Source of the DNA: Arcobacter vandammei
Lineage (GTDB): Bacteria > Campylobacterota > Campylobacteria > Campylobacterales > Arcobacteraceae
Assembly (NCBI RefSeq): GCF_016106035.1
Contig: NZ_JADKPZ010000005.1
Span: 1 to 64,000 of the forward strand
Length of the DNA stretch: 64,000 bases
Reading direction: 5' to 3'
The position numbers were made by a program, and so were the translations under genes. Under the pieces are notes generated by a model. The model was not told where the DNA came from. It saw only the letters and a program-made list of their open reading frames with translations, and did not search any database. Below, piece after piece: positions 46,664 through 50,715 of this stretch (position 1 is the first letter of the stretch; the number at the start of each line of letters is the position of its first letter).

Positions 46664-47336
46664 AGGACTTATAGTATTTATTCAATTTTCTATAACAGTT
46701 GCTATTGTTGTATTTTTTATGTATTTGTTTAGAAATCAAGCTCATAAAGTTATAAAAATATGGATGAAAGTTCAAATGTTTTTTCTTGGTATTAAGCTTG
46801 AAGTTGAAGGTAAATTGGATGAATCTTGTGATTTGATTATTTTAAATCACCAATCTTTGCTTGATATTATAGTAATGGAACACATTCATAATAGAAATAT
46901 AGCTTGGGTTGCAAAAAAAGAGATAGCTGATCTATTTTTCTTTGGACATATAATCAAAGCTCCACGAATGATTAGTGTTGATAGAGAAAATAAAGCAGGA
47001 TTAATAAAGCTTTTAGCTGATGTAAGAAATAGGTTAGATTTAGGTCGCCCAATTGCAATGTTTCCAGAAGGTACTAGAAGTGATGGAACTTATATGGGAG
47101 AGTTTAAAGCAGGAGCTAAAATGGTTGGGAATAAATTTAACTTAAGAGTTCAACCTGTTGTTATGTTTAATACAAGAAATATTGTAAATTCTCAAAAGAT
47201 GGAAGCTTCCCCTGGAGTTGTAAAAGTTGTATATTTAGAACCAGTTCAGGCTTCAAAAGATACATCTTGGTATGAAGATTGTGAAAAAAATATGAGAGAA
47301 GTTTTTGACAAAGAGTACAAAAATTATGTTTCTTAG
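46650..47336 (+). CDS. plsC: 1-acyl-sn-glycerol-3-phosphate acyltransferase
   Basis: PlsC makes phosphatidic acid at the inner membrane. The 228-residue product has a TM helix (about 9-25), the H-x4-D motif LNHQSLLDIIV near residue 67 and the glycerophosphate site MFPEGTRSDG near residue 138. It starts with TTG at 46650, supported by AAGGAGG at 46637-46643, and overlaps the previous gene. crcB starts inside its end. Confidence 0.92.
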   Translation: MKKIRGLIVFIQFSITVAIVVFFMYLFRNQAHKVIKIWMKVQMFFLGIKLEVEGKLDESCDLIILNHQSLLDIIVMEHIHNRNIAWVAKKEIADLFFFGHIIKAPRMISVDRENKAGLIKLLADVRNRLDLGRPIAMFPEGTRSDGTYMGEFKAGAKMVGNKFNLRVQPVVMFNTRNIVNSQKMEASPGVVKVVYLEPVQASKDTSWYEDCEKNMREVFDKEYKNYVS

Positions 47337-47712
47337 TTGGCAAACTATATTTGCAGTTGGAATTGGTGGAGCTATTGGCTCAATTTTAAGGGCTTATACT
47401 GTATTTTTTCAACAAAAATATTATCCAGTAGATTTTCCTTTAGGAATTTTAATTGTAAATATAATTGGCTCATTTATAATAGGTTTTTTATACATCTATT
47501 TTTCATCTTATATTGTATCAACTAATATGAGATTTCTTTTAATAACTGGTTTTTTAGGTGGCTTAACAACTTTTTCTACCTTTGCACTTGATAGCTATTT
47601 GCTCTTTGGAACATCTTTAAATCTTGCTATTTTAAATATTGTTTTAAGTCTTGGTGGTTCACTCTTTGCTGTTGCAATTGGTGTAAAAATAGCACAAATA
47701 ATTTTCAAGTAG
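47326..47712 (+). CDS. crcB: Fluoride channel CrcB/Fluc
   Basis: CrcB exports fluoride. The 128-residue product has four membrane helices with GIGGAIGSILRAY at the start, the conserved Asn in LIVNIIGSFIIGF near residue 45 and the hallmark GFLGGLTTFSTFALDS near residue 73. I chose ATG 47326 over the in-frame TTG 47305 because it gives the normal N-terminus; it overlaps plsC by 11 bp. No fluoride riboswitch is seen because the gene begins inside plsC. Confidence 0.92.
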   Translation: MFLSWQTIFAVGIGGAIGSILRAYTVFFQQKYYPVDFPLGILIVNIIGSFIIGFLYIYFSSYIVSTNMRFLLITGFLGGLTTFSTFALDSYLLFGTSLNLAILNIVLSLGGSLFAVAIGVKIAQIIFK

Positions 47713-47771: not shown

Positions 47772-48002
47772 ATGGGTATGCCAAGTGGAATGCAATTGTT
47801 GGTAATTGTTTTAATAGTATTAATTTTGTTTGGTGGTAAAAAAATACCTGAACTTGCAAAAGGTTTAGGAAGTGGTATTAAAAACTTTAAAAAAGCTGTA
47901 AAAGAAGATGATGAAGAAGTTGCAACTGCTTCAAAAATTGAGGAAAATGACAAAAAAGCTGAAACAAAACAATCAACAGCAACTGAGTCAAAACAATCAT
48001 AA
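47772..48002 (+). CDS. tatA: Twin-arginine translocase subunit TatA, copy 1
   Basis: TatA forms the pore of the Tat export system. The 76-residue product has an N-terminal helix ([20 protein letters not shown]), the amphipathic helix [17 protein letters not shown] and an acidic, polar tail. AAAGGATAA precedes the ATG. A second tatA follows after 17 bp. The shared 69-bp identical stretch is unusual. Confidence 0.92.
47812..47880 (+). repeat. 69-bp direct repeat within tatA copy 1
   Basis: The 69 bp from TAATAGTATTAATTTTG to GGAAGTGGTATTA are identical to 48060-48128, including third codon positions, while the sequences on both sides differ. Confidence 0.9.
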
Positions 48003-48019: not shown

Positions 48020-48238
48020 ATGAGTATGCCAAGTGGAATGGAACTTTTAATAATAGTTCTAATAGTATTAATTTTGTTTGGTGGTAAAAAAATACCTGAA
48101 CTTGCAAAAGGTTTAGGAAGTGGTATTAGAAACTTCAAAAAAGCTATAAAAGAAGATGATGAAGCTTTAGCAAAAAATGAAGAAAATGAGAAAAAAGAGC
48201 AAATACCAACACAAAATGAAGAGATAAAAAAATCATAA
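48020..48238 (+). CDS. Twin-arginine translocase subunit TatA, copy 2
   Basis: The 72-residue product matches copy 1 through the membrane and amphipathic helices ([20 protein letters not shown], then [20 protein letters not shown]) but has an unrelated Glu/Lys-rich tail. It could serve as a TatA/TatE- or TatB-like partner. argS follows after 10 bp. No tatB or tatC is in the window. Confidence 0.88.
48060..48128 (+). repeat. 69-bp direct repeat within tatA copy 2
   Basis: It is identical to 47812-47880; the offset is 248 bp. Confidence 0.9.
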
Positions 48239-49848: not shown

Positions 49849-50715
49849 TTAATCTTTAGGTTTTACAAAACTTTCTAAAAACTCTTCAATATTATATTTT
49901 TCTCTATATTTTTCACTCATTAAATGAATAAAAACATCACCTAAATCAATAACAGTCCAGTTGTCATCTTCATCAACTCTTAAAAACTCTTCACCTTTTG
50001 GTTTTAAATCAATTTTTAAGTGATCTAATAATGCACTTGCATGTTTTGGATTTAAAGTTGTAGCAATAACAACATAATCAACTAAATACTCTTTTGATGT
50101 TAAATCAAACACTTCAATATCAACAGCTTTTTTATCTTCTAAAATTGCTTTTATATTTTCAATTCTATTATTCAAAATTTTTCCTTTTTTTAAATATTTT
50201 AGGTCTTCCCAAATCTCTTTTGGTACATAATCTAAATCTAAATTCTCTCTTAGTTTTGTAGAGCTAATATCTATATTTATATCAAGAGTTTTAAAATCTT
50301 TTGATATTAAGTTATAGCCAATTCTAAGTGCTACAACAAATTCTAAACTCTCTTTTAGTTCATCTATATTATGCCATCTATGAAGAGATTTTAGATTGTC
50401 TTCACCTATTATAAAATAGATTTTACTAGGCTTGTATAGGTCTTTAATATATCTAATTGTCTCATAAGTATAGCTTAGTTTTTTTTGCTTTATCTCAAAA
50501 TCACTAATTTCAACTTTAGGATTATTTTTAAAAACTTTCTTAAGTAGTTCAAATCTTACATTTGGCTCAAATAAAAACTCTTTTTTAAATGGATTTAGAT
50601 AGGTTGGAATGATTATAAGTTTATCAATATCTAGCTCTTTTAATGCTGTTTCAACAATAGCTTTGTGTGCTATGTGAATAGGATCAAAACTGCCACCAAA
50701 AATTGCAATTTTCAA
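49849..50715 (-). CDS. nadD: NadD-RsfS fusion: nicotinate-nucleotide adenylyltransferase and ribosome silencing factor
   Basis: The 288-residue protein joins two activities. Residues 1-175 are NadD (NaMN to NaAD in NAD synthesis): GGSFDPIHIAHKAI with the HxxH motif, PTYLNPFK, YFIIGEDNL and DINIDISSTKLRENL. Residues about 184-288 are RsfS/Iojap, which blocks subunit joining: IKAILEDKKAVDIEVFDL, DYVVIATTLNPKHASALLD, WTVIDLGDVFIHLM. In many bacteria the two are adjacent separate genes; here there is no stop or start between them in a single open frame. Confidence 0.9.
   Translation of the reverse strand: MKIAIFGGSFDPIHIAHKAIVETALKELDIDKLIIIPTYLNPFKKEFLFEPNVRFELLKKVFKNNPKVEISDFEIKQKKLSYTYETIRYIKDLYKPSKIYFIIGEDNLKSLHRWHNIDELKESLEFVVALRIGYNLISKDFKTLDINIDISSTKLRENLDLDYVPKEIWEDLKYLKKGKILNNRIENIKAILEDKKAVDIEVFDLTSKEYLVDYVVIATTLNPKHASALLDHLKIDLKPKGEEFLRVDEDDNWTVIDLGDVFIHLMSEKYREKYNIEEFLESFVKPKD

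Follow-up and report, generated by a model that had tools for sequence, protein, structure and literature searches.

Does a reading frame that joins two housekeeping genes make one protein or two, and does the joining tie their functions together? This question is raised by the window, the whole stretch of 64,000 nucleotides of Arcobacter vandammei DNA analysed here, in which nadD (nicotinate-nucleotide adenylyltransferase) has no stop codon of its own and reads into rsfS (ribosome silencing factor), and in which the start signal of rsfS is intact. With one frame and two predicted housekeeping products the locus is a clear and cheap test case, and it carries a caution, namely that a fused frame need not mean a functional link.

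A single frame with two domains

The first-pass annotation of this DNA described one uninterrupted frame of 288 codons that encodes an intact NadD and an intact RsfS, and named no strand for it. The frame sits on the minus strand, with the following parts.

49849..50715, minus strand: single NadD-RsfS open reading frame, 288 aa, 34.0 kDa (computed), TTG start
50713..50715, minus strand: nadD start codon TTG, with TAG (50718-50716) directly upstream and AAAGG (50730-50726) before it
50176..50715, minus strand: NadD part, nicotinate-nucleotide adenylyltransferase, residues 1-180 (TIGR00482, PF01467, PDB and Foldseek matches)
49849..50175, minus strand: RsfS part, ribosome silencing factor, residues 181-288 (PF02410 and TIGR00090 above cut-off, PDB matches)
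49849..50175, minus strand: predicted separate RsfS product, 108 aa, 12.7 kDa (computed mass)

Both domains were confirmed by Pfam and NCBIfam profiles scoring over their cut-offs. The NadD part is covered by TIGR00482 at residues 5-171 (156.5 bits, curated NCBIfam cut-off 112.45) and by CTP_transf_like (PF01467) at residues 5-157 (88.7 bits, Pfam cut-off 21), and the RsfS part by TIGR00090 at residues 185-279 (90.9 bits, curated NCBIfam cut-off 56.9) and by PF02410 at residues 187-279 (82.6 bits, Pfam cut-off 21.6). The motifs HIAH and ISSTKLR were found in the NadD part, which agrees with the nucleotidyltransferase motifs GGSFDPxHxxH and ISSTxxR, and H14, H17 and S152 are invariant in an alignment of 51 fused proteins. 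Sequence matches in the PDB were 2h29, 8aih and 1kam for the NadD part and 30qz and 9q40 for RsfS. The description of the frame thus holds, with a computed mass of 34.0 kDa where about 33 kDa had been given. The locus is a NadD-YbeB fusion of the Wolinella type, that is, an uninterrupted frame with NadD first and both domains present, and its RsfS is the sole RsfS match in the A. vandammei genome, a draft of 56 contigs. The two-domain frame is not a chance occurrence, since HMMs verify the same frame in a further 84 genomes from the phylum.

An AlphaFold2 model built with the alignment of the 51 fused proteins (mean pLDDT 91.0, pTM 0.71) contains one continuous helix, residues 166-194, that runs from NadD into RsfS. 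In a Foldseek search the best 50 rows were all NadD structures, and no RsfS chain was among these 50 matches listed.

Elsewhere in the window, the plus strand carries two tandem genes for small TatA/B/E-type proteins (47772-48002 and 48020-48238; PF02416, 65.1 and 68.5 bits), preceded upstream by a gene for a CrcB-type protein (47305-47712; PF02537, 84.5 bits). The TatA/B/E-type pair is closely alike over the first ~50 residues and, from the sequences, is possibly a recent duplication.

The junction and a candidate internal start

At the boundary between the two domains the frame holds the signals expected of a gene within a gene, an in-frame TTG at 50175 and a Shine-Dalgarno (SD) motif AAAGGA at 50187-50182, together with two tracts of A and T.

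50173..50175, minus strand: candidate internal rsfS start codon TTG, residue 181 (a TTG shared by all 29 loci of the genus)
50182..50187, minus strand: SD motif AAAGGA, 6 nt upstream of the internal TTG (read from the sequence)
50185..50191, minus strand: A7 homopolymer at the junction (A5 in genome G012, A7 in the separate relatives L004 and L005)
50174..50182, minus strand: A5T4 tract between SD and start (A5T3 in the separate relatives L004 and L005)

Among the 35 Leu-type codons of the frame, TTG is used twice, at the frame start and at residue 181. All 29 loci of the genus, whether fused or separate, have TTG at the rsfS start and AAGG a few bases earlier. The anti-SD sequence was read from the genus member G012, since no 16S gene was found in the A. 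vandammei assembly; the 3' end of the 16S RNA confirmed there, GGATCACCTCCTTT, pairs with AAAGGA. A weak hairpin (-3.3 kcal/mol, z -1.16) lies across the SD and start of the window, a point against internal initiation there.

The way in which the two genes come to share a frame can be followed by comparison with close relatives. Four relatives with separate genes (L004, L005, L007 and L008) read A7GGA5T3 and then GA, and their nadD stops at the TGA within TTGA. The window reads A7GGA5T4, where the one additional T aligns the nadD frame with that of rsfS. In G012 the stretch is A5GGA5T3, which is two A fewer than in the separate relatives and also gives frame zero, so that the two genomes are in frame through unlike tract lengths (A7/T4 in the window versus A5/T3 in G012). 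By path length these genomes are mutual nearest relatives, with 89% nucleotide identity and a fork that the tree does not resolve, and their fusions may go back to one shared origin or to two.

The A7 run raises the thought that slippage also yields free NadD, by a shift of some ribosomes or transcripts into the frame that ends at the TGA within TTGA. The junction is preceded by TTTAAAAAAAGG, and in the separate relatives the shifted frame stops at that TGA. However, a run of seven is short, and most other fused junctions of the phylum, inspected by eye, carry no such run; we consider this an unlikely source of NadD.

Distribution of the fusion

RsfS is matched in 29 of the 31 genomes of the genus; the remaining two are 54% and 87% complete. 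Fused loci number two of the 29, those of A. vandammei and G012, and the other 27 are separate. For the phylum we took an even sample of 397 genomes, 394 of them with an RsfS match, fetched every frame of at least 240 aa and checked it with HMMs for NadD and RsfS. Both domains share one frame in 85 of the 394 RsfS-bearing genomes, spread over 21 of 68 genera and 8 of 13 families. Two groups, g16 (30 of 43 genomes fused) and f10 (18 of 22), account for 48 of these 85 genomes. The fused or separate state has changed at least 26 times on a tree built with FastTree from 267 loci, of which 84 are fused and 183, a part of those existing, are separate. The first-pass annotation had suggested a survey of domain architecture; in this one the fusion recurs in the phylum and is sporadic in the genus.

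That nadD and rsfS are usually neighbours, as had been stated, is borne out by the phylum: NadD lies upstream on the same strand at 271 of 286 loci, 85 of these 271 being fused and 186 separate; the 286 take in all fused loci and a part of the separate ones. The two genes overlap in 120 of 181 separate loci, most commonly by 4 nt (35 loci). With respect to phase, the 186 separate loci divide into 85 in phase 2, 74 in phase 1 and 27 in phase 0.

Since the fused phase of the window hangs on single bases in the A7 and A5T4 tracts, and the assembly is a draft of 56 contigs, one may ask whether a homopolymer error of assembly or sequencing has joined genes that are truly separate, like those at 27 of the 29 genus loci. 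We hold this to be highly improbable, as the nearest relative G012, assembled in two contigs, is also fused with tracts of different length, and the same architecture is found in 85 genomes of the phylum. A one-base error at the junction that concerns the A. vandammei draft alone is conceivable. Assembly artefact as a general cause of fused frames was rejected, for 85 genomes carry the frame, several of them in a single contig.

Fused frames were also met in another phylum. In that of G412, 140 genomes were searched and 135 bear RsfS; among the 11 frames of at least 260 aa that were inspected, three loci have NadD in the RsfS frame (L330, L335 and L337). In the phylum of G411 (139 genomes searched, 137 RsfS-bearing, long frames inspected), NadD was in frame in none of the five inspected RsfS frames of more than 200 aa.

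Some single loci depart in form. The fused frame of L330 (G553), in the other phylum, has AAAGGA followed by ATC at its junction, with no usual start codon. L230 (G236) is a fused frame of 582 aa in which an insert of more than 200 residues, rich in Ala, Ser, Gly and Asn, splits the NadD domain. In the fused L311 (G359) the linker is much shortened, with 12 nt from the end of the NadD profile, and little remains of the C-terminal part of NadD that follows ISSTKLR.

Conservation of the internal start

Of the 85 fused frames, 84 retain a start codon at the beginning of rsfS, preceded at 4-12 nt by an SD core, and 181 of the 186 separate loci have one too; among the control windows, which were 14 codons long and lay in frame elsewhere in the fused frames, 98 of 1385 do. 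The suspicion of internal initiation near residue 184, raised by the first-pass annotation, is well supported by this retention, with the candidate moved to residue 181. At the junction of genome G193, which is fused in the NadD-RsfS order (L057), AAGGAG and TTG are kept.

Further observations bear on the site. In the fused frames, Arg in the SD stretch is encoded by AGG in 23 of 25 cases versus 110 of 864 elsewhere, and Gly by GGA in 24 of 26 versus 249 of 960; the 57 different junctions (83 frames) in this test all bear an SD by construction, which makes it lean its own way, and the start-site and codon counts share ancestry and are thus not independent. In the genus g35, with 12 different fused sequences of 82.5% median nucleotide identity, synonymous diversity is 0.064 at ten junction columns versus a frame mean of 0.367. 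Only two of 184 ten-column windows are as low, both at the junction, and the junction value was reached by none of 20000 column shuffles, the ten columns having been picked after the profile was viewed; when windows of six codons are used, one RsfS stretch falls below the junction and one NadD stretch equals it. All nine fused sequences of g29, whose identity falls as low as 60%, have the ATG, set in a linker where nearly all columns vary. The g16 clade of 26 sequences gave no junction-specific dip in synonymous change, its sequences being too alike. The conservation of the SD could in part be inheritance from recent separate ancestors.

One may then ask whether the internal start has fallen out of use, RsfS being made solely within NadD-RsfS. 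L312 (G368) may be such a case, as it alone among the 85 fused frames lacks a junction start backed by an SD, and judging from this locus a fusion-only state of RsfS seems possible. As an account of the window we find it rather unlikely, for the site is kept in 84 of 85 frames, and codon choice and synonymous conservation point to its use. In A. vandammei a separate 12.7-kDa RsfS is probably also made from the TTG at 50175.

Selection on the fused frame

The large share of fused genomes in f10 and g16 would fit a bifunctional protein kept by selection, through whose NadD-RsfS link the NAD state governs the joining of subunits during starvation. The helix of residues 166-194 in the AlphaFold2 model would make such a coupling rigid, and an 'NAD-dependent ribosomal modification' has been predicted for Iojap/YbeB (PMC3223725). 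However, in the consulted part of the same source, pyrophosphatase or NAD cleavage activity was not detected for either E. coli YbeB or the W. succinogenes NadD-YbeB (PMC3223725).

In a rough test on 48 independent same-genus pairs whose members differ in spacing, a small number, selection for the fused frame was not seen. Phase is kept in 12 of the 30 separate-separate pairs, near the one third expected of random length changes, and where a pair includes a fused member (18 pairs), both members are fused in 5 and only one is in 13. As far as these sequences tell, the outcome is about what drift alone would give. Junction length is constant within the 293-aa g16 clade and in fused g35, and in these constant-spacing clades, and in f10, selection for the fused frame is conceivable.

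At the start of a contig in G371 (L304:3-803), the frame of rsfS is continuous with that of a TPR-repeat protein in place of NadD, and rsfS keeps its own AAAGGT and TTG. We read this frame, from its sequence, as a run-on from whichever gene is upstream.

The first-pass annotation had the fusion tie NAD synthesis to the control of ribosome subunit joining, and this part of it is not supported. Only 2 of 29 loci in the genus are fused, the state has changed at least 26 times in the phylum, the fused frame is not favoured in the pairs, rsfS can be in frame with an unrelated TPR protein, and the separate rsfS start is conserved. No evidence that links NAD synthesis to ribosome silencing was found in our analysis. 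A selected bifunctional protein is, on these grounds, improbable, and we infer that the fusion is tolerated rather than selected.

The RsfS of Staphylococcus aureus binds to uL14 and keeps the subunits from associating (PMC7125091, consulted in part). One may speculate, as a very long shot, that in f10 and in the 293-aa g16 clade no free NadD is made, that NadD carried on RsfS docks at uL14, and that free RsfS competes with it, the product ratio and the NadD substrate setting the degree of silencing. If this were true, all the NaMN adenylyltransferase of these bacteria would sit on the ribosome silencing factor through a rigid helix, a pool of RsfS from the internal start would compete for the same uL14 site of the 50S subunit, and the ratio of the two products together with substrate binding by NadD would set how strongly ribosomes stay apart.

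A model of the locus

The reading that we consider likely is a frame fused by insertion or deletion and tolerated, with free RsfS made in addition from the intact internal start. According to this model, nadD and rsfS would ancestrally have been neighbours, with the nadD stop at or just past the rsfS start, an arrangement found in most of the examined relatives with separate genes. Gains and losses of bases at the junction would shift the reading phase between the two genes, and a length change in the A/T tract would have brought phase zero, with loss of the nadD stop. Ribosomes translating nadD would then continue into rsfS and produce the 34-kDa NadD-RsfS, and ribosomes would also initiate at AAAGGA and TTG 50175 to give the free 12.7-kDa RsfS, with no free 21-kDa NadD expected. 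In the separate relatives the overlap would permit re-initiation after the nadD stop; fusion would remove this coupling and leave internal initiation. Both domains are expected to function as in the separate proteins.

The nadD-rsfS junction, then, drifts in phase, and about one fifth of the sampled genomes are fused, nearly all of them retaining the separate start site. This suggests that free RsfS could go unnoticed wherever such a frame is annotated as a single protein.

Comparison with known systems

The separate nadD and rsfS of relatives have the same order, the same domains and the same kind of rsfS start signal as the window. The difference lies in nadD, which in the relatives ends at a stop codon of its own that frequently overlaps with the rsfS start and in the window has no such codon. 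MALSU1, the mitochondrial relative of RsfS, likewise has an RsfS-like domain with additional N-terminal sequence; the sequence match is confined to the RsfS part, and we know of no NadD part in MALSU1. Solved MALSU1 chains exist, which we take to be ribosome complexes.

Wolinella belongs to the same phylum as the organism of the window. In a comparative-genomics table published in 2011, the Iojap entry includes a fusion of NadD with YbeB from Wolinella succinogenes (PMC3223725), so the fusion architecture is not new and has been in print since then. That protein unites the same two families as the frame of the window, YbeB being RsfS; it comes from another genus and family, and the consulted part of the source does not mention an internal start (PMC3223725). 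No report of a retained internal rsfS start in NadD-RsfS frames was found in the literature searched, which was mostly without subscription papers and in part covered by excerpts. What this analysis usefully adds to the published record is the conservation of the internal start and the repeated emergence of the fused frame.

The closest parallels to the predicted two products are the gene-within-gene systems rpn (PMC10327210) and hrcQ (PMC8553256). As described in the consulted parts of these reports, one frame gives two products in each, the shorter being the C-terminal domain made from an internal start. Those cases were shown by experiment, with a short product that acts on or with the long one (PMC10327210, PMC8553256). 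The short product of the window would also, unlike those of rpn and hrcQ (PMC10327210, PMC8553256), correspond to an ancestral separate gene.
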